Assembly (NCBI RefSeq): GCF_005885635.1
Contig: NZ_VATY01000001.1
Location: 372,001-436,000, forward strand
Reading direction: 5' to 3'
Length of the DNA stretch: 64,000 nucleotides
Source of the DNA: Maribacter algarum (ex Zhang et al. 2020)
GTDB taxonomy: Bacteria > Bacteroidota > Bacteroidia > Flavobacteriales > Flavobacteriaceae
The notes under the pieces are model-generated. The model did no database searches. It was not told where the DNA came from and saw only the letters and a list, made by a program, of their open reading frames with translations. Positions 36,238 to 53,733 of this stretch are shown one piece after another (position 1 is the first letter of the stretch; the number at the start of each line of letters is the position of its first letter). The position numbers were made by a program, and so were the translations under genes.

Positions 36238-37593
36238 ATGAAAAAATTTAAAAAATCAGACTTAGTTATTCCAATCTCCATTGTGATACATCTATGTATT
36301 ATTAATGGCATACTATGGTTGCTTACCCCAGAAACGTACCTCAATAAAATCAATTACATCTACTACAATGTAGCATGGCTAAGTATTGCATATGCAATTA
36401 ATTACTACCCCACAGATAGGAAGGAACGATTCACTACTAATTTTCACAAGAGCTTTCAACTATATATTGTTTTCGGACTAGCATACTTTGCGCTATTTGG
36501 TTTTACAAACCAAAGCTTTGATTCTTTAGAATATCAACTCCTTATTTTCGCCTTAATATGCCTATGTATTACCTGGTATCGGGTAATTTTCTTTTGGGCA
36601 AGGGGTAAGTATCGAAAAGTAGGGGGGAATTCTGTTAACGTTGTGGTTATCGGACGAGACACGATGCTAAAGAAAATTCGCAATGTATTCGATGATCCTT
36701 TTCTTGGGTATCGTTACAAAGGCTATTTTGACGATATACCTTCGACCAGCCCAACCTATCTAGGCAAAGTCTTAGACTGCTTCTTATATATCCTTGAAAA
36801 TGATATCGACGAGATTTATTGTGTTGCCTCAAAATTCAACAAAAAAGAACTCCAGAATCTTATCAATTTTGCGGATAATAATCTGATTCGAATAAAAGTC
36901 ATTCCCGATAACAAACAAATATTTTCTAGGGCAATGTCAATTGAATCTTATGACAATATTCCCGTACTAAATTTAAGAAACGTTCCGTTAGATACAGAAT
37001 ACGCGAGAATATTAAAGCGTACCTTCGATATCGTATTTTCTTCAATTGTAATCGTCGGCGTGCTATCCTGGCTATCACCTATACTTTTTATTTTGGTCAG
37101 ATTAGAGTCACCAGGATCTTTATACTTTAAGCAAAAACGTCACGGCCTTAAAAGAAAACCTTTTTGGTGTTACAAATTTCGATCTATGACCTCATCTGCA
37201 GATGCTCATACAAAAATGGCCACAAAAAATGATATGCGTCTTACCCGTATGGGTAAATTCATGCGAAAGACTAGTATCGACGAACTCCCACAGTTTTTTA
37301 ATGTATTCATGGGAGATATGAGTGTCGTAGGCCCAAGACCTCATATGGAATTACATACTTTAGACTATGAGGTTTCAGTAGACAAATACCTAGTTAGACA
37401 TTTTGTAAAACCAGGCATAACAGGTCTTGCTCAAATAAAAGGTTTTAGAGGAGAAATTATTGAAAAAGCGGATATTCTAAACCGAACAAGACTGGACATT
37501 TTTTATGTTGAAAAATGGTCGTTATGGTTAGATTTTGATATTATTTTCAAAACAGTTTTCAATGTATTCAAAGGGGAGGAACGAGCTTATTAA
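36238..37593 (+). CDS. WbaP-type polyprenyl glycosylphosphotransferase (initiating transferase)
   Basis: 451 residues. It transfers a hexose-1-phosphate (often glucose) to undecaprenyl phosphate, starting repeat-unit assembly. Four or so N-terminal membrane helices precede a CoA-binding-like middle domain (NVVVIGRDTMLKKIR). The catalytic C-terminal half begins RTFDIVFSSIVIV and carries YFKQKRHGLKRKPFWCYKFRSM, then TRMGKFMRKTSIDELPQFFNVFMGDMSVVGPRPH and VKPGITGLAQIKG, the signatures of this family. It is the first gene of the locus on the plus strand and faces the large minus-strand array. Confidence 0.94.
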   Translation: MKKFKKSDLVIPISIVIHLCIINGILWLLTPETYLNKINYIYYNVAWLSIAYAINYYPTDRKERFTTNFHKSFQLYIVFGLAYFALFGFTNQSFDSLEYQLLIFALICLCITWYRVIFFWARGKYRKVGGNSVNVVVIGRDTMLKKIRNVFDDPFLGYRYKGYFDDIPSTSPTYLGKVLDCFLYILENDIDEIYCVASKFNKKELQNLINFADNNLIRIKVIPDNKQIFSRAMSIESYDNIPVLNLRNVPLDTEYARILKRTFDIVFSSIVIVGVLSWLSPILFILVRLESPGSLYFKQKRHGLKRKPFWCYKFRSMTSSADAHTKMATKNDMRLTRMGKFMRKTSIDELPQFFNVFMGDMSVVGPRPHMELHTLDYEVSVDKYLVRHFVKPGITGLAQIKGFRGEIIEKADILNRTRLDIFYVEKWSLWLDFDIIFKTVFNVFKGEERAY

Positions 37594-37749
37594 GAAGATT
37601 TCCAAACGGTATTTTAATCATCAAATAAAGTTATATTTAGCAGAAATATTTTAAAAAGAATTAACCTAGTTTTCTGCTTTTAGCTGTTTTTAGAAAAACA
37701 TATTTAAATTACCATATCCAAATAGTTAAAGTTTTCAAATCCTTATTAA

Positions 37750-38508
37750 GTGATTGATAAAAACCCTTTGATTAGTATAATAACCGTAGTCTATAATGGC
37801 GAACGGTATTTACAACAGACCATTGATAGTGTAGCAAATCAGAGCTATAAAAATATCGAATATATAATCGTAGATGGAGAGTCCACTGACGCTACACTTT
37901 CTATTATTAAAAAAAATAGCAACCATATTTCACAATGGATTAGTGAGCCCGATGAAGGGTTGTACGATGCAATGAATAAAGGTATCGGAATGGCTAAGGG
38001 GGTTTTAATAGGCATCATCAATAGTGACGACTGGTATGAACTTAATGCCGTAGAAACTGTTGTTAATACCTATCTAGAGTTTCCTCAAAAAACAATATTC
38101 CACTCAAATCGTTTTGATGTTGATAATGATACTAAAAAAATCAGAAAATTTAATCCATCAAATTTTAAATTCAAATATTACGGAATGACATACAACCATC
38201 CAAGTATGTTCATTTCTCCCAGGGAATATAAAGAACATTTGTACAATACTACGCTAAAGTCGCTTTCAGATTACGAATTTATACTTACCGCATTTTTAAG
38301 GGATCCTGATAGATTTTACTATATCGACCAAACCTTGGTCAATTATCGACTAGATGGTATAAGTGCTCATATGGGGTTTTTAGAAAGTAAAAAAGAGGCA
38401 TATCTTGCGAGAAGGCAAGCTGGAATGTCAATTTTAGAACGTGTCTTTGCAGTCATTTTCGGGTCTTTAGTTAGACTTTTTTACCCCATTTTTAAATTCT
38501 TGAAATAA
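37750..38508 (+). CDS. Family 2 glycosyltransferase
   Basis: 252 residues. It starts at a GTG: a stop codon TAA lies directly upstream in frame (37747-37749), and no ATG precedes the conserved ISIITVVYNGERYLQQTIDSV. IIVDGESTDAT is the nucleotide-binding strand and GIINSDDWY the DxD-like metal site. DEGLYDAMNKGI is typical of GT2 enzymes that build exopolysaccharide repeat units (WcaA-like). It should be cytosolic and add one sugar to the lipid-linked intermediate. The donor is not known. The next glycosyltransferase begins two bases after its stop. Confidence 0.92.
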   Translation: MIDKNPLISIITVVYNGERYLQQTIDSVANQSYKNIEYIIVDGESTDATLSIIKKNSNHISQWISEPDEGLYDAMNKGIGMAKGVLIGIINSDDWYELNAVETVVNTYLEFPQKTIFHSNRFDVDNDTKKIRKFNPSNFKFKYYGMTYNHPSMFISPREYKEHLYNTTLKSLSDYEFILTAFLRDPDRFYYIDQTLVNYRLDGISAHMGFLESKKEAYLARRQAGMSILERVFAVIFGSLVRLFYPIFKFLK

Positions 38509-38510
38509 TT

Positions 38511-39551
38511 ATGGGTGCGTTTCGAGAAAAAGAAATTCTGAAGGTTGGATTATTTTACCCTGATTTAGACAAAGAAGGGGGCTACCCTCGTGATGTTTTA
38601 CGTTTATTCAAAGAACTGGAGAGTAAAGATGGTATTAAAGTAAAAAAAATCAAAAGTCTACCTCAGCTCCTTGTTTCGCTCAAAAAGTTAGACTGTGTTC
38701 ATGTTTTTGGCTTTTTTTCTTTCAAAATTTTCCTAACATGTCTGTTATGTATTGTCTTTAATAAAAAATATATAGTATCAGTTTTCGGCCAGTTATTACC
38801 GGGAGCCCTATCCATTGGCAAACTAAAAAAGATTTTCTTCATCAATTGCTTTGGTCGTTTTATTTTAAGAAGAGCGAGCAAAATTCATGTATTCACAGAT
38901 TACGAAGCGAAAGAACTTATTAAATATCAAATTTCAACACCAACTTTTAAGAGTTTTTTTGGAATATATCCCGAAGACGTCAAAAATACCCAAGAAATTA
39001 TGCCTTTGGTCATGAAAAAACCATTTTTACTCTTCTTTGGACGACTAGATATCCATCAAAAAGGGTTAAATATTTTATTGGAAGGTTTTAAAAAATATAG
39101 TATCAAAAGTGAAATGTTTGATTTGGTAATTTCCGGACGTAACTACAATAACGGAAATCTGTATATTGAAAATTTTCTAAGGAAAAATAATTCAAAAAGT
39201 AGAATTCATTTTTTAGGCGAGGTTACTGAAGTAGAAAAAGAAGCTTTATACTCTTATGCCGCAGCGATTATATATCCTTGCCATTTTGATGGAAATCCAA
39301 GACCGCTAAGACACGCCCTTTGTAGGAAGAAAAAGATATTGACTACTTTTCAAACTAATTTTGCCGATCAACTAGAACCTCACAACTGGGGGGTACTATT
39401 TGAAAACACTAGTTTGGACTTAGCCGAGGGAATTGAGAAATTTGAGGAAGTATCAACAAAGATTCCTTATGAAGAACCTTCAAAAACGAGATCTTGGGAT
39501 TATTGCAGCAATGAATTTATGGTAGCGTATGCCGCCACAATTAATAATTAA
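38511..39551 (+). CDS. Family 4 glycosyltransferase
   Basis: 346 residues of GT-B fold. The C-terminal Rossmann domain is clear: PFLLFFGRLDIHQKGLNILLEGF, then IHFLGEVTEVEKEALYSYAAAIIYPCHFDGNPRPLRHALC, where the usual E-x7-E motif is partly changed (FDGNPRPLRHAL in place of EGxPxxxLEAM). The N-terminal acceptor domain is less conserved. It follows the GT2 gene by two bases, so the two are co-transcribed, and its stop is one base from the convergent stop of the FAD-type gene. Sugar specificity unknown. Confidence 0.84.
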   Translation: MGAFREKEILKVGLFYPDLDKEGGYPRDVLRLFKELESKDGIKVKKIKSLPQLLVSLKKLDCVHVFGFFSFKIFLTCLLCIVFNKKYIVSVFGQLLPGALSIGKLKKIFFINCFGRFILRRASKIHVFTDYEAKELIKYQISTPTFKSFFGIYPEDVKNTQEIMPLVMKKPFLLFFGRLDIHQKGLNILLEGFKKYSIKSEMFDLVISGRNYNNGNLYIENFLRKNNSKSRIHFLGEVTEVEKEALYSYAAAIIYPCHFDGNPRPLRHALCRKKKILTTFQTNFADQLEPHNWGVLFENTSLDLAEGIEKFEEVSTKIPYEEPSKTRSWDYCSNEFMVAYAATINN

Positions 39552-39552
39552 A

Positions 39553-40617
39553 TCAAGGTAACGAACACCATTCTATCTCGTGCAAGTCACTATATTCCCA
39601 TTGTCCAAAGCGACCAAAAGGTAGAATATTGTTTTCCTTAAGAATAGCGATGTTTTCCAAAGTAGTTTCATCTTCTATATTTTCAGTTGGATAACTCGTT
39701 GGAGCATATAAATCCCGTAAATATTTCAACTCCTTAATTTCAGGCACAATTTCTTTTATGCGCAGTTGAATTGCCTTTTCTTGGACCTCTCCATACTTAT
39801 GTGCTTGCAATTGTACAAGTAATAAAGAATCAGTGACCGAAATACATCTTAAGATTGAAGAATTGTAATCACAATCATAAACAACTTCATTTTCTTCCAT
39901 TTCTCCATCAAAAGTATAATAGAAAAAATAGGCAGGAATACTTTCAAAGTTATAGGCAGAAGGTTTTTGACAAAGACTCAACAATTCGGGCAAATGTATT
40001 GTAGATATAAGGTGATCGTAATTTATAATAATTTCATTGGTAATTACTTCTTTTTTAAGGTAATCAATTTTTTCAATGTCACTGTACTGTATAATATTAG
40101 GCTCTATTTTTTGGATGGCCAGATTAAACAATGAAAGTCCATTGATATAACCGATTCGGGTGGCTTTATTTTTAGATAAATAGTGTCTTTCGATTTTTGA
40201 ACGTACTTGTTTATATGGCTTGGTTAGCATCTTTTCACTCCACTGTTTTAAACCTAAACAAAGCCACTTATTTATACTTTCATTTGAAATCATAAAATCG
40301 GCAAGAGAGTTTTCTCCAATAGTATGTTCTCTAAAATCAAAATTTGCCACATCGGTATACCTAACCCTTATAGGCTTTTGCTTAGGAATATTCTTAAATA
40401 AATCGCTTAGGTAAAGTTCTGATTCAAGTACAGGAAAAATTGGCAGGGGACTGAACTCGATTTCATGGTGCTGTATAGTTAAAAAGTGATTTCTAGAGGA
40501 TTTTTTTAAAATAACAATATCACTAGCATTATATCTTTCCAATAATTTGTGATAAGCTATTAGCGAGGCGTAACCATATCCAAGAAGACATATTTTTTTA
40601 TGTATTTTTTTCTTCAT
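39553..40617 (-). CDS. FAD/NAD(P)-binding oxidoreductase-like protein
   Basis: 354 residues. The N-terminus KICLLGYGYASLIAYHKLLERY is a Rossmann strand-loop-helix; the loop is GxGxxS, so the third glycine of the dinucleotide signature is a serine. The C-terminus ILPFGRFGQWEYSDLHEIEW resembles the last FAD-contacting segment (GRYGxWEY) of UDP-galactopyranose mutase-like and amine-oxidase-like proteins. A middle DHLISTIHLPELLSL also fits that fold. Within a polysaccharide locus, a nucleotide-sugar mutase or dehydrogenase role is plausible. It is the last gene of the minus-strand array, 51 bp after the synthase fusion. Confidence 0.62.
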   Translation of the reverse strand: MKKKIHKKICLLGYGYASLIAYHKLLERYNASDIVILKKSSRNHFLTIQHHEIEFSPLPIFPVLESELYLSDLFKNIPKQKPIRVRYTDVANFDFREHTIGENSLADFMISNESINKWLCLGLKQWSEKMLTKPYKQVRSKIERHYLSKNKATRIGYINGLSLFNLAIQKIEPNIIQYSDIEKIDYLKKEVITNEIIINYDHLISTIHLPELLSLCQKPSAYNFESIPAYFFYYTFDGEMEENEVVYDCDYNSSILRCISVTDSLLLVQLQAHKYGEVQEKAIQLRIKEIVPEIKELKYLRDLYAPTSYPTENIEDETTLENIAILKENNILPFGRFGQWEYSDLHEIEWCSLP

Positions 40618-40668
40618 TTTATTATTGGTTAAAATTGTTTTGGTTCTTTGTAAAATACAATCTAGAAA

Positions 40669-43600
40669 CTAATAGTGGTTCGCTTTATGACCTTCAGATA
40701 GAGGTGTATTTAAAGTTTCGATGACCGAAGTTGCAACGTTCGCTTCAGTATATGTTAGTAAAAGATTGTAATTAGTGTACTCGGTTGGTATGGTAACATC
40801 AATCTTAGAATTAATACCAAGTGGTTTTATTGCTAATACATTGCCACTTTGATCATACTTGATAAACATCCATTCAAATTTATCCTTCAAATTTTTGGTA
40901 TTTGTATGCTCCCATTTCCCATCTTGATTAATTAATGCATGATAACTTACCTTATCACCTGGCATAAGCCTTAAAGAAGGTTTCAAAATTCTAATTTTAG
41001 GCACTAAAAAGGTATGCTTTGGTACATTCCAGATATTTTTAAGTTTAAAAAAATCTGACTTCTTTTTACCTCTAAAATCAAGAACTCCGTCGAAGGTAAT
41101 ATCTTTAACCCTCCATTCATTCTGCCAATTTTTAATGAAAATTGACTTATTTGCCAATACCTTATAGTTATTGATATAGTTCCGTACATCTATGCTACTT
41201 ATAAAATGTTGTATATTATTCGACTCCGCAAACTTCACAAATTCATTCAAAAAGTAATCATCCCCGACTTTTAATCCATATGCGTCGACTGTTATGCCCT
41301 TTGATTTCATGTTACGTACCCTTTCAATAGAAAATTGCGAAAGTTGAATTTCTTGCATGACATATCTTTGACTGTCAACTCGATGAATTTCATTTACCAA
41401 GTCACGGAGCCATTGATAATATGCCTCTTCTTGCTTTAAGAAAACAAAATAATTATTGCAATTTCTAAGTCTAGACCAGAAATCATCCTTTAGTAACCAA
41501 CCCTTTATATGAACATGATTATTTAATTCTTTGATTCTTTGAATAATTTTATTTTTAAGTTCCTCAAGCAATATTTTATCTTTTACAAAATCTACCGTAT
41601 TTAATAAATCGAAACTGTATATTAAGTCGAGTTTATTCTCTTTCGAGTATTTCAAAACATTCTTATCATAAATAGAAGATTCTTTATATTTCAAAAAATT
41701 AATGTTTAGCTCTTTCATCAAACGAAAATCACGTTCGAGCTCCCCTTTTTTCGCCACATAATTATTCTCTATCCAGTTTACATATTTTTCATAACCTGCT
41801 CCTTGTATTTTCTGATCTATTTGTTTGGGAACGTAACTGTTTTTAATAATGGTATCGTTCATTACATTCTCACCATTAAAAGTATCATTCTTCGAGAAGA
41901 AAGAAAAGTTACTGGCATTGTAGTCCGAGAACGACCAATCTAAATATTCATAAGAGTATTCATGCTTATTGATAGGAATATTTTTATCGAAAGATGAGTT
42001 AAAGAAAACTACTGCATTAATTTCTGGGTATAAAGAATCAATTGAACTAAAGGCATTGTGAAACCATTCTTTTCGATTCCCGCCAATTTTCAAAGAACCC
42101 AATTCCGCAAGCAAAACAGGTTTGTAAGGCAGTTGCTTTAGCCCTTCATGAAAAGGGTGGTAAAGTTCTTTGAATTCATACCATTTACCATCCGAATTTA
42201 GTTTTCCATAATTTAACAGGGTTATACCAATCCAATCAACAAATTCATCACCCGGATAATATTTTGCAATTGCATTGTCCTTCCAGGGATTCCATACCCA
42301 TACAACATTTTCAACATGCATATTTTCAAATATTCTATAAACATATTGCCAAGCTTCTATAAACTCCTCAGGCGTATTTTTACCTGTCAAAGACCATGGA
42401 TATCCTGGATTATCAAATTCATGTGCAAATCGCAAAAATACAGGAGCATCAAACTCTTGAATTCTCCTTGCCATTTTTTTTATATAATTGTCAAATGTTC
42501 CCTCGGTAATATGATAAAAAACCTTTTTATTATCGCTAAGTCCAGGAATTGAATCACTAATTTGGAAGTCACTCGTCCAAGGTTCCCAAGATATCATTGG
42601 TACAGCACTACTTGTTTTTATTTGTTGTAGATACTCCATGGAAATGAGACTTTTCTCTGAATCTCCCCAAGGAATATACATTGATACAATTTGATAATTC
42701 AATTTGGTTTTTTTCTGGATTTTACTGATTTGTTCAATATCAGAAATACCCGTAGAATCAGATGGTTCGAAAATCCCATAATACATATAACTCATATTCG
42801 TTTCAGTATATGATTCTACATCTTCCCAGACACTTTCTTCTATTTTATTGAGTAAGAAGTAGGATAAAAATATGGATGCCATCAAAATTGGGAGAGCTAT
42901 TTTACGAATACTAGTAAAAATGATATTGGAAAGATTGCTAATATATTCTTTAATCTTCTTTAGCGAATCAATAGTATGGCTTTCTAAATTGGTCCTTAAT
43001 ATTCTATTTCTATTCATAAGTTTAGAGGCTCCGTAAACACTCATAAACATAAATACAGCGTTTAACAAAGCAAAAAAGGCCATAATAAGACTAAAGGGGG
43101 TTAAATCCCTATTTAGGCCATAAACGATAGCAATTACCGATAGAGCCCCAATAATTATGTTCGGAATAGCGATCGTCAGATTAGTTTCTTGGTTTTCACT
43201 TTTAGGGGTTGGAAGATATGGAATCTTTTTTCTGACAAATGTATAAACTACTCCCAGCGAATAAACCCACCATGTAATTATTTGCAAAAGCCCACCTATA
43301 ATATGAAAACCCCTCTCTCGTTTATCAATAACCCATTGCTGAATATAGGTTCGAATCATGAGAGAACTCATATAAACGGGCATACTAATTATGACAAAGT
43401 ATAAAAAATTACCAGTCCATGGCATTTCAGACATAAACAACGAAATAATCGGGATCAAGAAACTTATTAAGTAAATAAAACCTATCAAATAGTGCAAGGG
43501 CAAAAGCGCATAATGAATTTTTTGTCTAGTAGTGAGTTGTCTAAATATTCTGGGGTAAACTTTGTATAGTAGTTCAAAAGTGCCCCTTGACCATTTTAAT

Positions 43601-44493
43601 TGTTGCTTATAATAAGATGTTAGATCTACCGGAACCATACCCTTTGCTAGAATTTTGGGTACATAAACCGACTTCCAGCCCTTTGCATGAATAAGCATAG
43701 CTGTATGCATATCTTCCGCCAAACCTGGGGCATGTCCTCCAATACTATCAAGAGCTGATCTTCGAAAAGTACAATTCGCTCCAATCGCATTGACGGTACC
43801 ATAAGTGTTCATTCCCATCATCATGGGGCCATAAAAATGAAAAGTCTGTTCTGCTGCTCCTCTAGCTACTAATGTCTCATGCTTGTTGTGGTATGCTTGA
43901 ACAATTTGAACAAACCCGACCTTTTCATCTTTAAAATAAGGTATAACCTCGTTTAGAAGATGAGGCTTTGGTATGTGGTCTGGATCTAAAATCAGACATA
44001 TTTCTCCCTTGGCAAATCTTAGGGCGTTATTAATATTTCCCGCTTTGGCATCTACTCTGTTGTCTCTTGTGACATGTATTATTCCCAATTTTCGACATTC
44101 TTGCTTAAGAAAAGGATCATTGGCCTCATCACATAGATAAGTATTATGCGGATAGGTAATATTCTGAATAGCTTTTAGAGTTTTAAGAGTCATTTCATAA
44201 GGCTCACCCGGAAAATATGTTGTTAAAACATCTACCGTAAATGCCCTATTCAGTTTAGGCTTTTCTGGAATGGAAATACTGAAATAATGATACCATAAGT
44301 ATACTTTCTTCAAGATTCCGTAGAAAATCAAGATTGAGAGGAGTGTATATAAGAGTGTATTTCCCTTAAATTCAGACTTATAGAAGAAATACAAAAAGTT
44401 GACAATACTGAGTAGTCCAATTACGATCATAATCTTGACGGTAATTGATTCAACTCTAGTAGGTGCTTTAACCTCCCTCTTTTTTTTATTCAT
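40669..44493 (-). CDS. Processive GT2 synthase fused to a GH26 domain and a C-terminal barrel-like domain
   Basis: 1274 residues, three parts. (1) Residues about 1-500: two membrane helices, a cellulose-synthase-like GT2 with VDVLTTYFPGEP, CDEAND, LDPDH (DxD at 170-172), AED (259-261) and QQLKW (297-301, K in place of the usual R), then several membrane helices. (2) A further helix near 530-548 leads to a GH26-type domain (about 560-855) with FLRFAHEFDNPGYPW (acid/base E692), VVWVWNP, YYPGDEFVDWIGI and KPVLLAELGS (nucleophile E797). (3) Residues about 880-1274: a possible degenerate TIM barrel and a beta-rich end. The predicted layout puts polymerisation in the cytosol and cleavage outside, on one chain. 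It overlaps the preceding GH2-like gene by eight bases. Confidence 0.88.
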   Translation of the reverse strand: MNKKKREVKAPTRVESITVKIMIVIGLLSIVNFLYFFYKSEFKGNTLLYTLLSILIFYGILKKVYLWYHYFSISIPEKPKLNRAFTVDVLTTYFPGEPYEMTLKTLKAIQNITYPHNTYLCDEANDPFLKQECRKLGIIHVTRDNRVDAKAGNINNALRFAKGEICLILDPDHIPKPHLLNEVIPYFKDEKVGFVQIVQAYHNKHETLVARGAAEQTFHFYGPMMMGMNTYGTVNAIGANCTFRRSALDSIGGHAPGLAEDMHTAMLIHAKGWKSVYVPKILAKGMVPVDLTSYYKQQLKWSRGTFELLYKVYPRIFRQLTTRQKIHYALLPLHYLIGFIYLISFLIPIISLFMSEMPWTGNFLYFVIISMPVYMSSLMIRTYIQQWVIDKRERGFHIIGGLLQIITWWVYSLGVVYTFVRKKIPYLPTPKSENQETNLTIAIPNIIIGALSVIAIVYGLNRDLTPFSLIMAFFALLNAVFMFMSVYGASKLMNRNRILRTNLESHTIDSLKKIKEYISNLSNIIFTSIRKIALPILMASIFLSYFLLNKIEESVWEDVESYTETNMSYMYYGIFEPSDSTGISDIEQISKIQKKTKLNYQIVSMYIPWGDSEKSLISMEYLQQIKTSSAVPMISWEPWTSDFQISDSIPGLSDNKKVFYHITEGTFDNYIKKMARRIQEFDAPVFLRFAHEFDNPGYPWSLTGKNTPEEFIEAWQYVYRIFENMHVENVVWVWNPWKDNAIAKYYPGDEFVDWIGITLLNYGKLNSDGKWYEFKELYHPFHEGLKQLPYKPVLLAELGSLKIGGNRKEWFHNAFSSIDSLYPEINAVVFFNSSFDKNIPINKHEYSYEYLDWSFSDYNASNFSFFSKNDTFNGENVMNDTIIKNSYVPKQIDQKIQGAGYEKYVNWIENNYVAKKGELERDFRLMKELNINFLKYKESSIYDKNVLKYSKENKLDLIYSFDLLNTVDFVKDKILLEELKNKIIQRIKELNNHVHIKGWLLKDDFWSRLRNCNNYFVFLKQEEAYYQWLRDLVNEIHRVDSQRYVMQEIQLSQFSIERVRNMKSKGITVDAYGLKVGDDYFLNEFVKFAESNNIQHFISSIDVRNYINNYKVLANKSIFIKNWQNEWRVKDITFDGVLDFRGKKKSDFFKLKNIWNVPKHTFLVPKIRILKPSLRLMPGDKVSYHALINQDGKWEHTNTKNLKDKFEWMFIKYDQSGNVLAIKPLGINSKIDVTIPTEYTNYNLLLTYTEANVATSVIETLNTPLSEGHKANHY

Positions 44494-45859
44494 TATTTGG
44501 ATTTAGGACATAAAAAGGAACGTTCGCGGTTGCATGGAATTCCTTATTATCTTCAACATATACAAAAAGCCTATAAGGCCCTTCCTTCATTGGTGAAATG
44601 AAACTTGATTTCGTTGAACCACTGCTTAAAAAGAGATTATTTATCGGTGCTGGCTTTGCTTCTTCTCCGTAATGTAGGTAATTCCAATTCTCAGGCCGAA
44701 TTTCCCAACGGGTTTTAAATTGTGAAGAGGATTGATTATCTGCTAGCAATAGTTGTGTATTTACCTTTTCATTAGAGTTGAGAATAATACTTTCCTGCGC
44801 GCCCTTACCATTCAATAGAACATAATTAATTCTTGGACCCAAAAATGTTCGTTCTTGGTTTTTCCATAAGCTTTCCATTTCAAACACGGCTTGAGTCCTT
44901 TTGCCAGTCTCCGAAAAAAAACTGAACCAAGTGTGCGTTCTTTCTTGCTTATGGCCCCAATAAAAAGTCAACGACCCTAAGAATCTTCCATCGTCTAGAG
45001 TTTTAATATACTTTTCATATCTATTTTTATACTGTTCAGCCTTCTTGGTACTTGTCTGTTCTATTGGAGAATTCCATAAAGTTTGTTCTGCTTCCCAAGG
45101 GCCGTTAACTCCGAACTCACTAAAGACATAAGGTCCGTGCCATAGTGGATAAATCAGTTTCTTTCTAGAACCAAATGTACTTAACTCCCCAAAAATATTG
45201 ATGCTTAATAAATCTAGGTTATTGACCTTATGATTAATACTTAAAATTCTACTTCTATCAAAACCTCCCACTGCAGTACTTACTGGATGATTATGATCTG
45301 TTTCTTTAACCAGTCGAACAAGTTTATTAAAATTATCATAGAAATTATCATCACCAGGTAGATCAGGTGCTTTCAGTTCGTTACCTAACATCCAATATAG
45401 CAAGGCAGGGTGATTTTTGTACTTAATGACGAACGCCCTTATATCTTCAAAAAGACGATTCATTTGACTATTATTAGCATAAACCGAATCGGGGACTATA
45501 TATCTTGGTATAGGAATGTCCAAAATAACTGCTAAACCAGCTTTGTCCGCTTCATCTAAAGTCTGTACTAAATTGGTGGTGTCATAAATTCGTATCGTAT
45601 TTCCACCTGCTTTCTTTAGCTCTTTAAAATTAGAATTACCTGAAGTGCCTTTGATTAAGAAAATCTTACCGTTACGCACAAGTTCATAGCCCGAAGAGGT
45701 CTTTCTCACAAATACTGTTGCTTCTATTTTTTCTTGTGAACATGATTGGAATAAACCAAGAAAAAGTATAACGGCGGTTGTACTTATGGCTATTTTATTT
45801 TTATAATTTTCATAAAAAAAGCGCAGTATATATATAAATTTTTGATAAAAAATGGCCAA
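44486..45859 (-). CDS. GH2-like glycosidase-fold lipoprotein
   Basis: About 457 residues from a TTG at 45859; no in-frame ATG lies before the signal, so the exact start is uncertain. A lipoprotein signal ends LFQSC (C40). Next comes a TIM barrel of the GH2-C type: LIKGTSGNSNFKELKKAGGNTIRIYD, AGLAVILDIPI, HPALLYWMLGNELKAPD (acid/base E161), VFSEFGVNGPWE (likely nucleophile E248), FLGSLTFYWGHKQERTHTWFSFF. A small beta domain ends the protein. Both glutamates are present, so it may be active on the polymer of the adjacent synthase. It sits between wzc (7 bp gap) and the synthase (8-base overlap). Confidence 0.8.
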   Translation of the reverse strand: MAIFYQKFIYILRFFYENYKNKIAISTTAVILFLGLFQSCSQEKIEATVFVRKTSSGYELVRNGKIFLIKGTSGNSNFKELKKAGGNTIRIYDTTNLVQTLDEADKAGLAVILDIPIPRYIVPDSVYANNSQMNRLFEDIRAFVIKYKNHPALLYWMLGNELKAPDLPGDDNFYDNFNKLVRLVKETDHNHPVSTAVGGFDRSRILSINHKVNNLDLLSINIFGELSTFGSRKKLIYPLWHGPYVFSEFGVNGPWEAEQTLWNSPIEQTSTKKAEQYKNRYEKYIKTLDDGRFLGSLTFYWGHKQERTHTWFSFFSETGKRTQAVFEMESLWKNQERTFLGPRINYVLLNGKGAQESIILNSNEKVNTQLLLADNQSSSQFKTRWEIRPENWNYLHYGEEAKPAPINNLFLSSGSTKSSFISPMKEGPYRLFVYVEDNKEFHATANVPFYVLNPNNE

Positions 45860-45866
45860 ACGTATT

Positions 45867-48317
45867 TTATGAATTCTTTCTAAAAATTATGGTTTTCATT
45901 TTATCAAAAGTCTTTCGACCAAATGAAATATACTTCACATACAATTTCTTAAGAGTCCCGTAAATGAGGTTCTTTTTGTTTATAACTTCGAAAGATTCGA
46001 CTTCCCCGTAACCATATTCATATCCATAATTATATTCTTTATCATTATGACCAACACCATTCAATAGATATACCATATTTCTTAGCTTGTTCTGAGCAAA
46101 AATCTCTTTAGAGAATTCGAGCAATTTTTTCTTGGTATAATTTGCTCTAGTTACAAAAAGAGTAATGTCTGCAAATGGGGCAATTAACAAAGTATCAGAC
46201 ACCAACATTGTGGGGGCCGTATCTATGACAACAAAATCATACTCTTTTTTAGCATTTTCAATAAAAGTACCGAAGGCATTTCCTGAAAGTAATTCTGATG
46301 GATTGTGAGGAACCTTACCTGTAAAGCAAACCTGGAGATACTTGTTTCTTAAACCATTAGCAGTTATGGGTTCTTTCCAATCAATCTCAGGGTACAACAA
46401 ATAATGTGACAGACCTAATTCGCTGCTTTGGTCAAAAAATGTCTGCAGTTTCGGATTCCTCAAATCACCTCCAACAATCAATATTTTTTTCTTCAAACTT
46501 GTAAGCGCAAATGCCAAATTTAGTGCGGTTAAAGTTTTTCCTTCACCTTTCACTGAAGATGTCACTAAAATTACTTTTCCATTAGCATATTCGGATACTT
46601 TTCCCAAATGATAAATAATATTTGCACTTAATAATCTATACGATTCAGCAAGAACTGAGCGGTCATTCACTTCAAGAAAGCGTTTGTCATTTTCAAAAAA
46701 CGGTATCTCACCTATTATTGGAATTTCAGAATTCGTCTGAATTAAATCTTTTCGTTCATGAATTTTATTGTCAAAAGTAAATCGAACATAAAGAACCAAG
46801 AATGGTATTGCTAGCCCTAAGAAAAGGCAAATAGGATAGGTAATAAGCTTTTTAGGAGAAACCGGTTTTTTTTGCGTTAAACCGTAATCAACTATTTTAA
46901 TTGAAGGTGCCGTAATCGCATAATTAACAGCGGCTTCTTCTCGCTTTTGCAGTAATAACAAAAATAGTTTCTCTTTAATTGATTGCTGCCTTTCAATAGA
47001 TCGCAGCATTTTCTCTTTTTCAGGCAACCTCGAGAACATGTCATTGGCCAAATCTTTCTGTTCATCGAGTTTTTTTAAAGATGAGCCCAATTGCCTTCGA
47101 AACACATTTAACGTCTTAAGAATATTTTGTTTGGCACTTTCTAATTGAGCATTCATATCTTGAAGTGTTGGATGATTAGTTCCAACACTTGTCATAAGTT
47201 TACTTCTTTCAAGAGAAAGCTCATTAAATTCTGAAACTAAGTTATTGATGCTACTATTTTCTAAACCAACATCGGATGGCAGTAAGCTATAGGACTGCTC
47301 GTTAACAAGTGCCGATTTTAGCAAATTTGATAGGGTAATTTGGGTCTCCAAATCAAAAACCTCGTCTTCAGCAACAGATTTTTTCCTTAAGATACTCGTA
47401 GCATCTTCTTCAATATAAGAAAGATTATTAGCCTGTTTATAACCTTGTTTTCCGGCTTCTATTGAATCTAGTTCTCCTGAAAGGTATAGAAAACGTTCAT
47501 CTAAAAAGTCCAAGGTTCGTTTTGAAATTAACTGTCTATCTCGAATACCATCTTCATTAAATTTTTCAATAGTTTTATTCAAAATATCTTCCGAACGTTG
47601 CCCGCTCTCTCCTACGAGCCATAAAGTTAGAATTTCACTTTTCTTGTTTGAAGGTTGAACCTGCAGATTATTAGTCAGGTTCATTACAGCTTCCTTCTTA
47701 GGGTGAATAGCTACTTGATAAACTACATCTTCATATTCTTCTAGAACAATACCCTCCAATGGTCGAATATTGAATGGTAAACCAGTCATAGAACTTCCCA
47801 GATTATTATATTCAACAAAATATTCCCTATCATAATCATCAGTAATATGAAAACCTTCGGCCTTTAATTCAACTTCAAACCATAATGGCTCGATAGCTTC
47901 CTCAGATAACAAATGATCAGCAACAACAAAAGGTTGGTTCCAGATTTCCGAGGTTTTGAAAGTGCCTTTGTAATAGTATGAAATATCTAAGTCTAGGTCG
48001 TTTACAACTTGGTCTAAAAGACGGTATGATTTTAAAATCTCTATCTCATTGTCCATGTTGATTTTGCTATCTGACCAAAATAAGGTAGAGGGGTCTTTTG
48101 CAATATCCAATTCTTTGGTATCGTCTATAATCTTGATTTTGGCCATAGTTAGAAAAGTAACTGAAGCATAACGCATATAAAGAAAACCAATAAAAAGACT
48201 AAGCAAGGTCATGCCTAAAAAAAATGGCCAATACCTAAAATACTTCATAAAAGCATCCGTTAGTGAGAACAAATCCTTTTTCTCGAAATAATCAAAGCTA
48301 TCTTTCAATTCATCCAT
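45867..48317 (-). CDS. Polysaccharide co-polymerase and tyrosine autokinase (Wzc type)
   Basis: 816 residues. The N-terminal Wzz domain has a membrane helix near 31-50, a long periplasmic coiled-coil stretch, and a second helix near 490-512. The cytosolic BY-kinase has Walker A SSVKGEGKT (587-595), Walker A' GGDLRNP (616-622) and Walker B VVIDTAP (696-702). A tyrosine cluster follows (EYNYGYEYGYG, five tyrosines at 762-770), then about 45 further residues rich in K. It should control chain length and export of the polymer. The Wza outer membrane partner usually found beside it is absent from this window. The first gene upstream is a glycosyltransferase, 214 bp away. Confidence 0.94.
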   Translation of the reverse strand: MDELKDSFDYFEKKDLFSLTDAFMKYFRYWPFFLGMTLLSLFIGFLYMRYASVTFLTMAKIKIIDDTKELDIAKDPSTLFWSDSKINMDNEIEILKSYRLLDQVVNDLDLDISYYYKGTFKTSEIWNQPFVVADHLLSEEAIEPLWFEVELKAEGFHITDDYDREYFVEYNNLGSSMTGLPFNIRPLEGIVLEEYEDVVYQVAIHPKKEAVMNLTNNLQVQPSNKKSEILTLWLVGESGQRSEDILNKTIEKFNEDGIRDRQLISKRTLDFLDERFLYLSGELDSIEAGKQGYKQANNLSYIEEDATSILRKKSVAEDEVFDLETQITLSNLLKSALVNEQSYSLLPSDVGLENSSINNLVSEFNELSLERSKLMTSVGTNHPTLQDMNAQLESAKQNILKTLNVFRRQLGSSLKKLDEQKDLANDMFSRLPEKEKMLRSIERQQSIKEKLFLLLLQKREEAAVNYAITAPSIKIVDYGLTQKKPVSPKKLITYPICLFLGLAIPFLVLYVRFTFDNKIHERKDLIQTNSEIPIIGEIPFFENDKRFLEVNDRSVLAESYRLLSANIIYHLGKVSEYANGKVILVTSSVKGEGKTLTALNLAFALTSLKKKILIVGGDLRNPKLQTFFDQSSELGLSHYLLYPEIDWKEPITANGLRNKYLQVCFTGKVPHNPSELLSGNAFGTFIENAKKEYDFVVIDTAPTMLVSDTLLIAPFADITLFVTRANYTKKKLLEFSKEIFAQNKLRNMVYLLNGVGHNDKEYNYGYEYGYGEVESFEVINKKNLIYGTLKKLYVKYISFGRKTFDKMKTIIFRKNS

Positions 48318-48531
48318 CTCGGTACTTGCTTTTTAGGTTTTAAAGCGTTGTCAAAATTAATTTTTAAATTTCAAATATAAAGTTTCTACATCAGAGTATA
48401 AGATTTTACCGACAATCGCATCAATTAGTACGACAGAATAATTCCATACCTAGATTTTCTCATTATGTTGTATTACTCAAGCAAAAAACTCTTGAATAAA
48501 CCATTTCCATACTAAATGATGACCTAAGGCA

Positions 48532-49641
48532 TCAAACAATTCTTTTAAGTATTCCAGTCAAATTATCCTCGAACTTTTTAAGAGTAAACTCCTGCAAATA
48601 GAAATTTCGTCCTTTGACTCCCATTTCAGATCTTAGTGTCGGACTAGCTATCAATTGTTCTAGCCTATTTGCCAATTGTTCAGAATTTTTTTGTTTGACC
48701 AAAAAGCCTGATTGACCTTCTTCGACTATTGCTGCTATGGCACCCTCTGGGGTAGAAACAATTGGCAATCCATACTGCATGGCCTCTAAGAGAACCAAAG
48801 GAAAGCATTCATTATCATAATGTGTAGGCAAAGCAAAAATGTCGGCATTTCTATATGCTTCATCCTTATCCTTTCCATACTTTTTTCCTAAATAAAAGAT
48901 ATCATTCTGTAATTGCAATTCTTCAACCCTACTTTGAAACTGACCTTCTGAAATATCTCCTTCACCCCCAATAAAAACACAACTAAAATCTATACTTCTA
49001 TCCTTTAATACCTTACAAGCATCTATAAGGGTTTGGACTCCTTTTGATTCAATCAGGTTCGAAAGAAACAATATTTGCGGCTTTCCGTTTTGCTTTTGCT
49101 CTTTTATTTCGAATCCCCTTATTTCCGGTACACCATTGGGGCAATAATACACCTTAGATTCGGGAATATATTTTTGAATATCACTATACAATGGAGGAGC
49201 CAGTAGTATGACTTTACATTTTTTGAAAACAAACTTGTATATAAGATTATAAACCCATTTATTTTGTTTGTTACTAACACCTTTATTATGAAAATGATAG
49301 ACCATCTGAATACGAAATAGTCTGATTAGTAGAACAACTAGAGCATCCTTAAAGAAGCCAATTCCTGTAGAGGTTAGGGTGATGTAGACCAAATTAGGTC
49401 TGAAATTTTTCAGAGACCTATAAGTTTCTTTCAGAATTTGAAAAAACCTTTTCACTTTAGACCAACCACCTTTGCCAATGTCATCAACACTTACAGAAGT
49501 ACCAAGGTTTATATAATCACACTTAAAAGTGGTATTGATATCTTGACTTTCCCTTATATATTTACCCACCATAGCGGCACCATGTACTGGCGGTGGGTAA
49601 TGCAATATGAAAAGCACTTTTTTTACAGATTGGTCTTCCAA
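48532..49641 (-). CDS. Family 4 glycosyltransferase
   Basis: 369 residues, GT-B fold. The start is a TTG (49641) in a region without a nearby in-frame ATG. The N-terminus FILHYPPPVHGAAMVGKYI is typical of GT4. In the C-terminal half, ILFLSNLIESKGVQTLIDA, FYLGKKYGKDKDEAYRNADIFALPTHYDNECFPLVLLEAMQYGLPIVSTPEGAIAAIVEEG has the E-x7-E motif (E-CFPLVLLE) intact. It is the fifth of the string of minus-strand genes upstream of wzc. The donor and linkage cannot be told. Confidence 0.93.
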   Translation of the reverse strand: MEDQSVKKVLFILHYPPPVHGAAMVGKYIRESQDINTTFKCDYINLGTSVSVDDIGKGGWSKVKRFFQILKETYRSLKNFRPNLVYITLTSTGIGFFKDALVVLLIRLFRIQMVYHFHNKGVSNKQNKWVYNLIYKFVFKKCKVILLAPPLYSDIQKYIPESKVYYCPNGVPEIRGFEIKEQKQNGKPQILFLSNLIESKGVQTLIDACKVLKDRSIDFSCVFIGGEGDISEGQFQSRVEELQLQNDIFYLGKKYGKDKDEAYRNADIFALPTHYDNECFPLVLLEAMQYGLPIVSTPEGAIAAIVEEGQSGFLVKQKNSEQLANRLEQLIASPTLRSEMGVKGRNFYLQEFTLKKFEDNLTGILKRIV

Positions 49642-49666
49642 TTTTCTAGCTAGTTAATGATTTCTT

Positions 49667-50692
49667 CTATTCGATTGTTGAAATATTTTTATATGACAAA
49701 AGATTCAATAATGACATCTCCATTCCATATGGTTCATCAACCTCTACTTTCATCAAAATTTCTTTTATCAAAAAAACAGAAAAAATAGAGTTAAATTCAG
49801 GTATGCCAACCTCATTTCGAATAGATTCTAATAATTTTTTATCCCGCTTATTATGAAGTAAGTGATTTACCTGAAACTGAAACTTCAATGCGTCTAAATG
49901 TTCAAGTCCGTGTTCTTCGAAATATTCAAAATCGAAAGGCATTAATTCGTTTGCGACCCATATAAGATTCCATGGGGCGAAATCACCATGCTCGAAAACC
50001 TCATAATACTGATTGGTGGAATGGTTTATAGCTTGATCCAGTATTTCACACAACTCCCAAAGTTCCAAAAATTCTAATTGACTCCTAAGTTTATGAATTC
50101 TGGGGTGATCAACTAGTTTGAAAGAATTTTGTTTTTTAAACAAATCCAATACAACCTGATACTGCGAAGGTTCAAGATTGCCTATTGAGCCTTCGACATT
50201 TTGAAGGATAATATATGGTCGTTTATCGTAACTCCCTTCATCAATGAGTTCAGGAATTAAGTCAAGTTCAAAAAGCATTTTAGTCGCTTTTTTTTCATTA
50301 AGGATTCGTTTATGACCTAACGGAGATATAGCATACTTCAGATACCCGAGAATACTTCCATTCTCCAATAATTGTAAAACAACTTTGTCATGCGCGGTCG
50401 ATAAGTAAACTGAACTTTTAATCTCCTTATCAAGCCGCCTCTCTAACTCTTGGATAAATTTTGATTTTTCACTTCGTACAGTTGGTAGAATTATCTTTGC
50501 AAAGAAATTAAAATATATACTTAAGAATTTAGTGAATGTCTTTAAAAGTCTAGCTTTTTTAGAAAAAGGATTGTACAGCTTGAAGGCCTCTCTGGCTGAA
50601 CGTCCATTTTCAATGTTAAGGTAAACTTTGGGATTATTTTTTGTTGGCAACACCAAATTTACACCACCAGATAAAAATTCTGTATTATCCAT
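49667..50692 (-). CDS. Aminoglycoside-phosphotransferase-like kinase
   Basis: 341 residues. The catalytic segment FEHGDFAPWNLIWVANELMPFDFEYFEEHGLEH (from about residue 230) has HGD-x4-N, the Brenner motif of APH/choline kinases, and DFE in place of the DFG-like metal motif. The N-terminal lobe is weakly conserved (LYLSTAHDKVVLQLLENG, with KYAISPLGHKRILNEKKATKML possibly giving the ATP-binding lysine). It probably phosphorylates a small molecule or sugar of the polysaccharide route. It overlaps the P-loop kinase gene upstream by eight bases, so the two are coupled. Confidence 0.78.
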   Translation of the reverse strand: MDNTEFLSGGVNLVLPTKNNPKVYLNIENGRSAREAFKLYNPFSKKARLLKTFTKFLSIYFNFFAKIILPTVRSEKSKFIQELERRLDKEIKSSVYLSTAHDKVVLQLLENGSILGYLKYAISPLGHKRILNEKKATKMLFELDLIPELIDEGSYDKRPYIILQNVEGSIGNLEPSQYQVVLDLFKKQNSFKLVDHPRIHKLRSQLEFLELWELCEILDQAINHSTNQYYEVFEHGDFAPWNLIWVANELMPFDFEYFEEHGLEHLDALKFQFQVNHLLHNKRDKKLLESIRNEVGIPEFNSIFSVFLIKEILMKVEVDEPYGMEMSLLNLLSYKNISTIE

Positions 50693-51317
50693 TTATACTA
50701 TTCCTAATAATACGACCGATTTCAGAGGCTATCTCATCTGGGGGTCGATTAACTTCGATATTGATGTAACGTTTGCCATCGGCTAGATTGCGATACTGAA
50801 CAATTTGTCTTTTTAGCTCGTTCAAAGGAACTTCCTTTTTCCTACTATAAATAACGTCTGCATCAGTGGTTAAAATAAAATAAAATCTAGGTTTTGGAAT
50901 AAAATGCCGTATAAACTTGGCCGTACTCATTGCTCCTCCATACCTATATCGACGGCTATCTACCAATAGATCATCATAATATCTATCAAAAATTATTAAT
51001 GAAGATTGTGATTTTAAACGGAGAATATTATATACCCAGCCGAAATTATATTGAACAACAAAAAATAGCAACTTCAAAAATGACTTGAGGTGGCCGTAAG
51101 GTTTTTGACCATGCGGATTATCCTGTACAACATGCTTACTTCCCTCAGCTTTAAAAAGGGGTTTTAAGTGAAAATAGTCATACCTACTAAAGGGTAGATT
51201 CTTAGCTAATAACTTTTGGATAATAGTAGATTTACCGGAGCCATCTGGGCCTAAAAAGGCAATGGCAAAACCATTATCTGCTGTTTGATTGCGGGGAACG
51301 TTTGTCTTTTTTACCAT
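50685..51317 (-). CDS. Thymidylate-kinase-like P-loop kinase
   Basis: 210 residues. Walker A is FLGPDGSGKST (GPDGSGKS at 23-30). FDRYYDDLLVDSRRYRYGG corresponds to the DRx motif of thymidylate kinases but with an inserted, different loop. KPRFYFILTTDADVIYSRKKEVPLNELKRQ stands where the lid is expected. A housekeeping thymidylate kinase is unlikely because the segment is unlike Tmk and the gene lies in a glycan cluster. It is more likely a kinase acting on a glycan or lipid precursor. It starts 15 bp after a GT4 gene and overlaps the APH-like gene downstream. Confidence 0.75.
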   Translation of the reverse strand: MVKKTNVPRNQTADNGFAIAFLGPDGSGKSTIIQKLLAKNLPFSRYDYFHLKPLFKAEGSKHVVQDNPHGQKPYGHLKSFLKLLFFVVQYNFGWVYNILRLKSQSSLIIFDRYYDDLLVDSRRYRYGGAMSTAKFIRHFIPKPRFYFILTTDADVIYSRKKEVPLNELKRQIVQYRNLADGKRYINIEVNRPPDEIASEIGRIIRNSING

Positions 51318-51332
51318 ACCTATCTCTGATGT

Positions 51333-52571
51333 TTAGGCTTTTGTTTTATTTAAAACATCCTCATAGATATGGCATATCTGTTCCTTACGCCGGACCCAAG
51401 TATACTCTGTCATAATTCTTTTCTGAGCATTCGTACTTAAATCTAAATACTTTTTTTCGTTATGCGACAATTCCATCAGCCCATCACCTATTTGTTCACA
51501 AATCATTTTGGAAGATTTTAAATCTATGAGCAAACCGCAATTTTCGGTAACCATATCTTTAGGCCCGCTGGTATCAAGACAGATAATTGGCAAACCATAA
51601 GACATAGCTTCCATTATAGACCAACTACCCCCTTCACGAAAAGATGGATGTATTAAAACATCGGATTCAACCATCTTCATTTTTATCTTAGCATTATCGA
51701 CAAAGCCTCTAACGAAAATAGAATTTTCAAGCTTATTCTTATTTATATACTTTTCAATACTAGACATTTCCTTTCCATCTCCAAATAATTCAAGTGTACC
51801 ACTTCCGCCTGCTTCCAAAAAACGATGAAACCCTTTGACGGCATATAAAAAACCCTTCCAATAGTTCATTCTACCAACACATATGGCCTTAATGTTTTTA
51901 CTGTGATTTTTCTTAGGATGATTTTTAAAACTAAATGCTGGCATAGCTGTTTCAGAAATAGTTTCATAGATGGTACTTTTTCTCTTGGGGAAAGTTCTTG
52001 CTGAGCTTTGAGTTCGAAATAAAATGGCATCTGCCTTTTTCCTAGTGAAAAATGAAAAAATCGAAATTCGATTGATTTGATTAACAGTAGTATAAATCAA
52101 TTCTTGAAGTACTGCGCCGAATCCCATATTTTTCAAAAATCGCATGGGTACTGTATCGCCACCCCCAATTGGCCCCCAAACAAATGGTTGTTTTAGTAAA
52201 TAACCAGGAGGAGCTATCCATGATATGGCGAAATTTAGATGATGTACCAAATCAATGGGGCGACTATAACTTTTCATAAATTTATTCACATAAAAATAGG
52301 CTCCCCATTGCCATAACGCATAATATATTTGTGTACCCAAGGGCAATCTCTTTTTAAGGGAAGTAAAGAAAGAAGGTAAATCATAATAGATAAATTCAAC
52401 ATTACCCGCTTGCTTCGATTCTATAACCGCACGATTATTTGCACGAGTTAAAATTATGGTATCATAGGCTTTTGAAATATGATTTCCCATATTCCAACCC
52501 ACCCCTGGTTCGGAAGTTTTATCAGGTTCGCATGCATATGCTATTAGAAGTACTCTTTTTGTATTAACCAT
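51333..52571 (-). CDS. Family 4 glycosyltransferase
   Basis: 412 residues from the ATG at 52571; a TTG one codon upstream (52574) gives 413. N-terminal domain: VLLIAYACEPDKTSEPGVGWNMGNHI, an opening shared by several exopolysaccharide GT4 enzymes. C-terminal domain: AICVGRMNYWKGFLYAVKGFHRF, IFVRGFVDNAKIKMKMVESDVLIHPSFREGGSWSIMEAMSYGLPIICLDTSGP, where the E-x7-E motif is REGGSWSIMEAM. It overlaps the NTase-fold gene upstream by eight bases and is followed after 15 bp by the P-loop kinase gene. Confidence 0.93.
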   Translation of the reverse strand: MVNTKRVLLIAYACEPDKTSEPGVGWNMGNHISKAYDTIILTRANNRAVIESKQAGNVEFIYYDLPSFFTSLKKRLPLGTQIYYALWQWGAYFYVNKFMKSYSRPIDLVHHLNFAISWIAPPGYLLKQPFVWGPIGGGDTVPMRFLKNMGFGAVLQELIYTTVNQINRISIFSFFTRKKADAILFRTQSSARTFPKRKSTIYETISETAMPAFSFKNHPKKNHSKNIKAICVGRMNYWKGFLYAVKGFHRFLEAGGSGTLELFGDGKEMSSIEKYINKNKLENSIFVRGFVDNAKIKMKMVESDVLIHPSFREGGSWSIMEAMSYGLPIICLDTSGPKDMVTENCGLLIDLKSSKMICEQIGDGLMELSHNEKKYLDLSTNAQKRIMTEYTWVRRKEQICHIYEDVLNKTKA

Positions 52572-53613: not shown

Positions 53614-53733
53614 TGGTGGAAAGTTAGGTCTTTAATGGCTGACCAAAAATAGTGTTTAAATAGAACTATTTAGATTTCTTTCGACAAGATGAGTAAATCT
53701 AAAGGTGAATTTTTAGCGAATCAATTTTTACTT

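Follow-up and report, generated by a model that had tools for sequence, protein, structure and literature searches.

A predicted GT2 synthase fused to a GH26 barrel and encoded beside a GH158 gene in Bacteroidota

What does a polysaccharide synthase make, and why would it carry a glycanase on its own chain? Both questions are raised by a gene in a 64,000-nucleotide stretch of the Maribacter algarum genome (contig NZ_VATY01000001.1, positions 372,001 to 436,000; hereafter the window), which encodes a GT2-type protein with a GH26 domain fused behind it. The observations are the order of the domains (a predicted GT2 synthase, predicted membrane helices, GH26 and a degenerate third domain), GH26 and GH158 catalytic residues that are retained, and a two-gene operon that is conserved. 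The reading that we prefer, and to which we give an even chance, is that the fusion protein is an inner-membrane synthase of a beta-1,3-containing beta-glucan, the chain being handled by the tethered GH26 domain and by a co-translated GH158 protein; in it we infer the topology, which sugar and linkages the chain has, how the enzymes act and what they are for. If so, this would be a widespread beta-glucan synthase system whose natural versions, with GH26 fused, separate, dead or missing, amount to a ready-made natural experiment on why glycanases are retained by synthases. Should the product be a mixed-linkage glucan, then Bacteroidota, a phylum whose members are better known as degraders of that polymer, would also produce it.

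Architecture of the fusion protein

The fusion protein is encoded by a single open frame. A preliminary description of this DNA reported 1274 residues at positions 40669–44493, which is confirmed, and the gene lies on the minus strand, a point absent from that description. The motifs it listed stand at the residues given (D170/D172, A259-E260-D261, QQLKW at 297–301, E692 in RFAHEF and E797 in LAELGS). The chain runs from a BcsA-like GT2 synthase through seven predicted membrane helices to the GH26 domain, and from there to a degenerate GH158-like barrel with an immunoglobulin (Ig)-like domain. Domain searches bear out the GT2 (Pfam PF13641, 4.5e-21) and GH26 assignments (PF02156, 7.6e-13; 48.9 bits against a cut-off of 20.2, with both glutamates in place); the third domain (residues ∼890–1265) and the overlapping GH158 gene had been overlooked. 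Conservation was read from an alignment of 24 full-length fusion rows, from which L027 (in-frame stop) and L032 (no GH26) were left out.

The GT2 part resembles BcsA in its DxD, ED and Q(Q/R)xxW motifs, its GT-A fold and its channel helices, from which processivity is predicted. D170, D172, E260, D261 and Q297–W301 are invariant in all 24 rows. BcsA is the best fold match of the model in Foldseek (4p00, E 2.5e-24), and the barley (1,3;1,4)-glucan synthase CslF6 is among the matches at rank 36 (E 7.4e-10). The best NCBIfam match is the cellulose synthase family TIGR03030 (161.3 bits against a cut-off of 699.1, E 2.6e-47), with PgaC and NodC lower; because the score lies far under the cut-off, the protein is BcsA-like but outside the curated cellulose synthase family. 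A Pfam scan at E 0.01 found no match in the fusion protein to PilZ, nor to GH17 (PF00332), the domain that marks the GT2-GH17 class. A plasmid search with the GT2 part returned 521 records, in all of which coverage of the query stayed under 80% and identity under 60%; 20 of 25 plasmid rows among the matches listed bear a bcsA label.

An AlphaFold2 model of residues 1–868 (pLDDT 84.9, pTM 0.62) has long helices at 13–37, 46–70, 322–354, 363–388, 439–462, 466–489 and 533–557, plus one interfacial helix. In the linker ahead of the last helix the net charge averages +5 (range 1 to 10). We take the PYxPTPK loop to occupy the gating-loop position of BcsA, and the extra last helix (533–557) presumably sits where BcsA runs on into its cytosolic PilZ part. 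By analogy with BcsA the GT2 domain would be cytosolic, and a cytosolic N-terminus followed by seven helices, as predicted by AlphaFold2 and hydropathy, would put the GH26 part in the periplasm, outside the inner membrane as had been proposed.

The GH26 domain is closest to a lichenase. Its nearest PDB sequence is Clostridium thermocellum CtLic26A, listed as Endoglucanase H (2v3g, 93.7 bits, 1.1e-25); a beta-1,3-xylanase follows at 36 bits, and the remaining chains, which include GH26 proteins, a mannanase and AlXyn26A, score at most 29.5 bits. For an AlphaFold2 model of residues 545–1274 built from the 24 rows (mean pLDDT 83.4, pTM 0.62), the top Foldseek match to this domain is again CtLic26A (2cip, E 4.2e-19, TMt 0.81; CtLic26A chains TMt 0.80–0.83), and mannanase chains among the 50 matches listed reach only TMt 0.54–0.58. 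By sequence and by modelled fold the nearest characterised relative is a lichenase, and the domain is a candidate member of the GH26 lichenase subgroup. E692 and E797 are invariant in 24 of 24 rows, and both align with glutamates of CtLic26A that we take to be its catalytic pair. In a wider set of 116 rows, the first position is glutamate in 111 and the second in 107 (this set, like the 108-row and 95-locus sets below, contains some genomes twice). None of the refuting outcomes named in the preliminary description was seen: the GH26 family matches are significant, the two glutamates align with those of a GH26 structure, and the predicted helices would place the barrel outside the membrane. Around the acid/base the fusion reads RFAHEFDNPGYPW, resembling RPLHEANGDWYPW of CtLic26A and including a shared HE...YPW stretch, unlike the RPFHEMNGDFFWWG of the same genome's other GH26 protein. 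The latter is a much stronger PF02156 match and is presumably of the mannanase type.

The third domain is related to GH158 and has lost its catalytic residues. Its alignment to that of the upstream GH158 protein by hhalign has 98.2% probability (E 4.1e-14, 319 columns), and Foldseek matches it to the GH158 structures 6pal and 9p26 (E about 3e-13, TMt 0.58–0.66). Since hhalign, AlphaFold2 and Foldseek find a barrel plus an Ig-like domain, a plain linker or small binding module is ruled out. The window copy has neither catalytic glutamate and is not counted as a GH158 member. Both are kept in three of 108 C-domain rows (two from Pontibacter, one from a Catalimonadaceae genome), all outside the 26-row tree group that contains the window protein. 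These intact pairs suggest that the fused domain was once an enzyme, and it is best read as an old GH158 turned pseudoenzyme.

GH158 partner, distribution and natural variants

The protein encoded directly upstream matches GH158 structures over nearly its full length (profile against PDB: 6pal, 4.4e-86 over profile positions 40–442 of 447; GH158(Pro) 9oro, 2.1e-84), where Pfam alone gives a GH2-barrel match (3.3e-7). Its N160, E161 and E248, which correspond to the Asn-Glu acid/base and the glutamate nucleophile essential in GH158, are invariant in 22 of 22 rows. The known activity of GH158 is endo-beta-1,3-glucanase. A lipobox-like pattern was found by script in seven of the 22 GH158 N-termini, including the window copy (FQSC); the others start hydrophobic by eye, and two of these also end in cysteine. 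Such N-termini indicate that the GH158 protein is probably membrane-anchored and faces the periplasm.

Relatives of the fusion occur in many Bacteroidota. A single-sequence query of named genomes gave no match and an alignment query did, yielding at least 588 candidate stretches. At least 557 of these code for a relative of some sort (tblastn E ≤ 1e-3), with fusions and other forms among them. The 80 best matches were taken as named loci, so their full-length state is partly selected. According to their record titles they come from Flavobacteriaceae genera, Pedobacter, Chitinophaga, Dyadobacter, Larkinella, Lewinella, Pontibacter, Prolixibacteraceae, Balneolaceae and others. Of these loci, 74 contain the whole three-part frame; in five a contig end truncates it, and in one a stop interrupts it. 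Because the same frame recurs in so many genomes, the fusion is no frame accident, and we rejected a sequencing artefact or a local chimera as its source. In a sample of the family, 25 of 397 genomes match at E ≤ 1e-60, and in 22 of the 25 (M. algarum included) the fusion is complete or nearly so, with one copy cut by a contig end. In a sample of the phylum, 16 of 395 genomes match at 1e-50, variant forms included. Thirteen other genomes of the genus, several incomplete, gave nothing beyond partial GT2-type or GH26-type matches, so the distribution is patchy.

The GH158 gene is the one constant neighbour. It adjoins the fusion gene in all 80 named loci, upstream on the same strand in 77 (with a 4-base overlap in 30 of these), upstream on the opposite strand in two and downstream in one. 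When proteins of at least 120 amino acids (aa) within seven genes were clustered over 95 loci, GH158 was present in 88 and the next largest family, a tandem-GH26 protein, in 11; no other conserved neighbour family exceeded 11 of 95, and BcsB itself was not searched for. Several smaller features were seen beside the operon. An MBOAT protein (PF03062; Pfam-checked in L065) and a ∼320 aa partner are encoded on the opposite strand in eight distinct loci (L012, L040, L043, L047, L065, L066, L071 and L082), and the glucan may be O-acylated there. L095 (Chitinophaga japonensis) has two GH158/fusion gene pairs in tandem. A stop interrupts the fusion gene in L118 (Gelidibacter sediminis), L027 shows the same two pieces, and in L050 and L106 it is the GH158 gene that is in two pieces.

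The GH26 domain also occurs off the chain. In G215, G249 and G611, GT2 and GH26 are separate genes of one cluster, which in G215 also encodes a tetratricopeptide repeat (TPR) protein, whose C-terminal part looks outer-membrane barrel-like by eye, a nucleotidyl transferase and two dehydratase/epimerase-like proteins. The unfused version in L038 and L039 encodes TPR, GT2, nucleotidyl transferase, GDP-mannose-dehydratase-like, epimerase and GH26 proteins (Pfam-checked in L038), the GH26 protein with one N-terminal hydrophobic stretch. In G630 and G675 (L164 and L165), GT2 and the C-domain are joined without GH26, and a tandem-GH26 gene lies directly downstream, with a 7-base gap or a 4-base overlap; it seems to replace the missing internal domain. 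Such a separate protein of ∼560–590 aa, with two GH26-like units of which the first is weaker, is also encoded near the fusion in L070, L079 (same genome as L014), L085, L093, L096, L105, L112, L119, L124, L130 and L135. Degenerate GH26 domains are found in two Dyadobacter copies and in five rows from four further genomes.

A tree of 43 GT2 domains (midpoint root, some long branches) unites the fused forms and the loss variants in one group of 34 rows with support of 96/99. The GH26-less and Dyadobacter rows lie among the fused ones and the split forms outside, a placement that favours one fusion with later losses. We rejected the label 'split' for L151 in this tree, as its genome G681 has no GH26 match and its GT2 is therefore alone; its long branch is of unsure position. 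Related operons encode GH26 in trans, and in several lineages it is dead or gone; the fusion is thus frequent without being obligatory, and the evidence favours a GH26 supplied in cis or in trans in many, not all, lineages.

Predicted product and mode of action

A GH26 domain nearest to CtLic26A together with a GH158 partner makes a beta-1,3-containing glucan, perhaps of mixed linkage, likelier than beta-mannan. The preliminary description had offered a beta-mannan-like or a mixed beta-glucan polymer; the second fits better, and the first sits poorly with the lichenase-like GH26, the GH158 partner and the different active site of the genome's other GH26. In the reading we prefer, the synthase would polymerise glucose on the cytosolic side and extrude, through a BcsA-like channel, a beta-glucan that contains beta-1,3 linkages and, most likely, beta-1,4 linkages as well. 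The tethered lichenase-like GH26 would act outside on the emerging chain, and the co-translated, probably membrane-anchored GH158 on its beta-1,3 linkages, while the dead GH158-like domain would most likely bind or steer the glucan. The net effect may be trimming, release or transglycosylation during synthesis; the coupling of polymerisation and cutting on one chain is suggested by the domain structure. We also conjecture, as a tentative and rather doubtful extension, a Bacteroidota-wide synthase machine in which transglycosylation cuts the nascent chain anew and rejoins it into a defined (cyclic, branched or fixed-length) mixed-linkage glucan, with the fused GH158 copy as a substrate-guiding pseudoenzyme and a GH26 that moves between cis and trans.

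Known systems resemble the fusion in part. BcsA with BcsZ shares the GT2 fold, membrane helices, a Q(Q/R)xxW-type motif and a glycanase belonging to the system, but here there is no PilZ match, and the glycanase is fused and of another GH family. CtLic26A shares fold and both glutamates with the GH26 domain, which differs in being tethered to a synthase. The endo-beta-1,3-glucanase BuGH158 (6PAL) resembles the upstream protein in its barrel, Ig-like domain and N-E and E residues, and the C-domain in fold; unlike that degradative enzyme of a polysaccharide utilisation locus, the intact copy here is in a synthase operon and the fused copy lacks catalytic residues. The closest published layout that we found is that of the pseudomonad BcsA-like 'Orphan'/NdvB GT2-GH17 proteins, proposed in the accessible part of PMC10237404 to make cyclic beta-1,3-glucan. 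There too a BcsA-like GT2, a channel and a predicted periplasmic barrel acting on beta-glucan are on one chain, but the GH17 is N-terminal, whereas here GH26 and the dead GH158-like domain are C-terminal after an extra helix and a GH158 partner gene is present. The earlier remark that synthase and glycanase are usually separate proteins is in this respect incomplete, since it overlooks these fusions. The words 'GH26' and 'Bacteroid' are absent from the main text of PMC10237404, and among the titles and abstract openings listed from open-licence PubMed Central (PMC) papers, those on GH158 and on lichenases included, there was no description of a GT2-GH26 fusion. Mixed-linkage glucan itself is documented in bacteria (Romboutsia ilealis, Sinorhizobium meliloti), where the GT2 synthases BgsA (proposed; said to lack PilZ) and RiGT2 (shown in yeast) make (1,3;1,4)-beta-glucan; they are likened to the present protein by description only, and the excerpt of PMC10374906 mentions no fused GH.

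Other products have to be weighed against this one. The protein might be a cyclic or short-glucan synthase, with GH26 (and GH158) working as transglycosylases to cleave and cyclise what is extruded, an idea we find possible, if doubtful. GH26 is a retaining family of clan GH-A, and retaining enzymes can transglycosylate; against this, CtLic26A is known as a hydrolase, and neither GH26 nor GH158 is known to include a transglycosylase or cyclase. The layout is nonetheless of the same kind as that of the GT2-GH17 proteins (PMC10237404, as accessible), and GH158 is a retaining clan GH-A family (PMC7157763, in the portion available). A gene directly downstream of the fusion in one locus (L014:15883-18366) points the same way, encoding a membrane protein whose C-terminal domain belongs to the sulfatase family (PF00884), though Pfam-checked in that locus only. 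By eye we take it to be reminiscent of phosphoglycerol/LtaS-type transferases. We hold it unlikely that the exopolysaccharide is cellulose or a different glucan with beta-1,4 linkages alone, edited by the fused GH26 in the manner of BcsZ. The GT2 is indeed nearest to BcsA/CelA (TIGR03030, 2.6e-47; 4p00), and the synthase-linked GH5 protein CcsZ shows another GH family doing the BcsZ job with a mixed-linkage preference in vitro (PMC7710045, accessible text). However, the TIGR03030 score is 161 against 699, PilZ found no match, the partner's family is one of beta-1,3-glucanases, to whose fold that of the dead domain is related. A beta-mannan synthase with its own mannanase is highly improbable. 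GH26 is best known for beta-mannanases, and the Pfam match is to PF02156; but mannanases are more distant in sequence and fold, the partner gene is GH158, and in a published GH26 tree lichenases branch apart from both mannanase branches (PMC6556568, in the part available). The fusion's sequence, fold, active-site stretch and partner gene together led us to disfavour beta-mannan.

Several observations weigh against a beta-1,3-containing glucan handled by GH26 and GH158. The GT2 carries no linkage signal, and its top matches are cellulose synthases. Identity of the GH26 domain to CtLic26A is ∼26%; nine of the 116 rows deviate at one or both glutamates, GH26 is absent or dead in some lineages, and G148 lacks it, the sole GH26 match of that genome lying ∼250 kb away. 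A glycanase's preference does not fix the polymer, since CcsZ, the GH5 protein that accompanies a clostridial cellulose synthase, has fivefold higher activity on mixed-linkage glucan than on carboxymethyl cellulose (PMC7710045, same text). Foldseek ranks a GH2 beta-glucuronidase just above GH158 for the C-domain by E (1.4e-13), though with TMt 0.27, and the C-domain sequence profile found no GH158 PDB chain, only GH2 beta-mannosidases and galactosidases (E 2e-4 to 3e-3). The pTM of 0.62 in both models makes relative domain placement unsure. GH158 is also widespread as a separate gene (41 of 196 genomes in a sample of the order), and in the window the gene pair sits inside a Wzc/GT4 exopolysaccharide locus, although such Wzc, GT4 and Bac_transf neighbours are unconserved in relatives' loci and so say little about function.

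Features and surroundings in the window

Table 1. Coordinates of the fusion gene, its parts and the adjoining genes (positions in the window)
Feature	Position	Strand	Basis and remarks
GT2-GH26-pseudoGH158 fusion protein, 1274 aa	40669..44493	minus	Single open frame; Pfam, PDB and Foldseek matches
Membrane helices TM1-TM2, residues 13-70	44284..44457	minus	AlphaFold2 helices 13-37 and 46-70; hydropathy averaged over 24 rows
GT2 (GT-A) catalytic domain, residues ∼80-320; D170/D172, E260-D261, QQLKW 297-301	43534..44256	minus	Pfam PF13641; PDB BcsA chain 5ej1, 8e-34
Membrane part: TM3-TM6, interfacial helix, PYxPTPK loop, positive linker, extra last helix 533-557	42823..43530	minus	AlphaFold2, loop charge, Foldseek
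GH26 domain, lichenase-like, predicted periplasmic; E692 codon 42418-42420, E797 codon 42103-42105	41914..42786	minus	PDB, Foldseek, alignment
C-terminal degenerate GH158-like barrel and Ig-like domain, residues ∼890-1265; catalytic Glu positions lost	40699..41826	minus	hhalign, Foldseek
GH158 protein, directly upstream, 8-base overlap with the fusion gene; listed TTG is merely the first possible start	44486..45859	minus	Profile search, alignment
Wzc-like chain-length/tyrosine-kinase protein, 7 bases upstream of the GH158 gene	45867..48317	minus	NCBIfam TIGR01007, 123.3 bits against cut-off 108.05

The surrounding exopolysaccharide locus spans window positions 36238–56193. Its plus strand encodes a Bac_transf sugar transferase and GT2 and GT4 proteins, and its minus strand the Wzc-like protein and two GT4 proteins. 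Proteins of 341, 349 and 354 aa in the same interval have no Pfam match, and a protein sorted by a type IX secretion system (T9SS type B) is encoded at 53734–56193.

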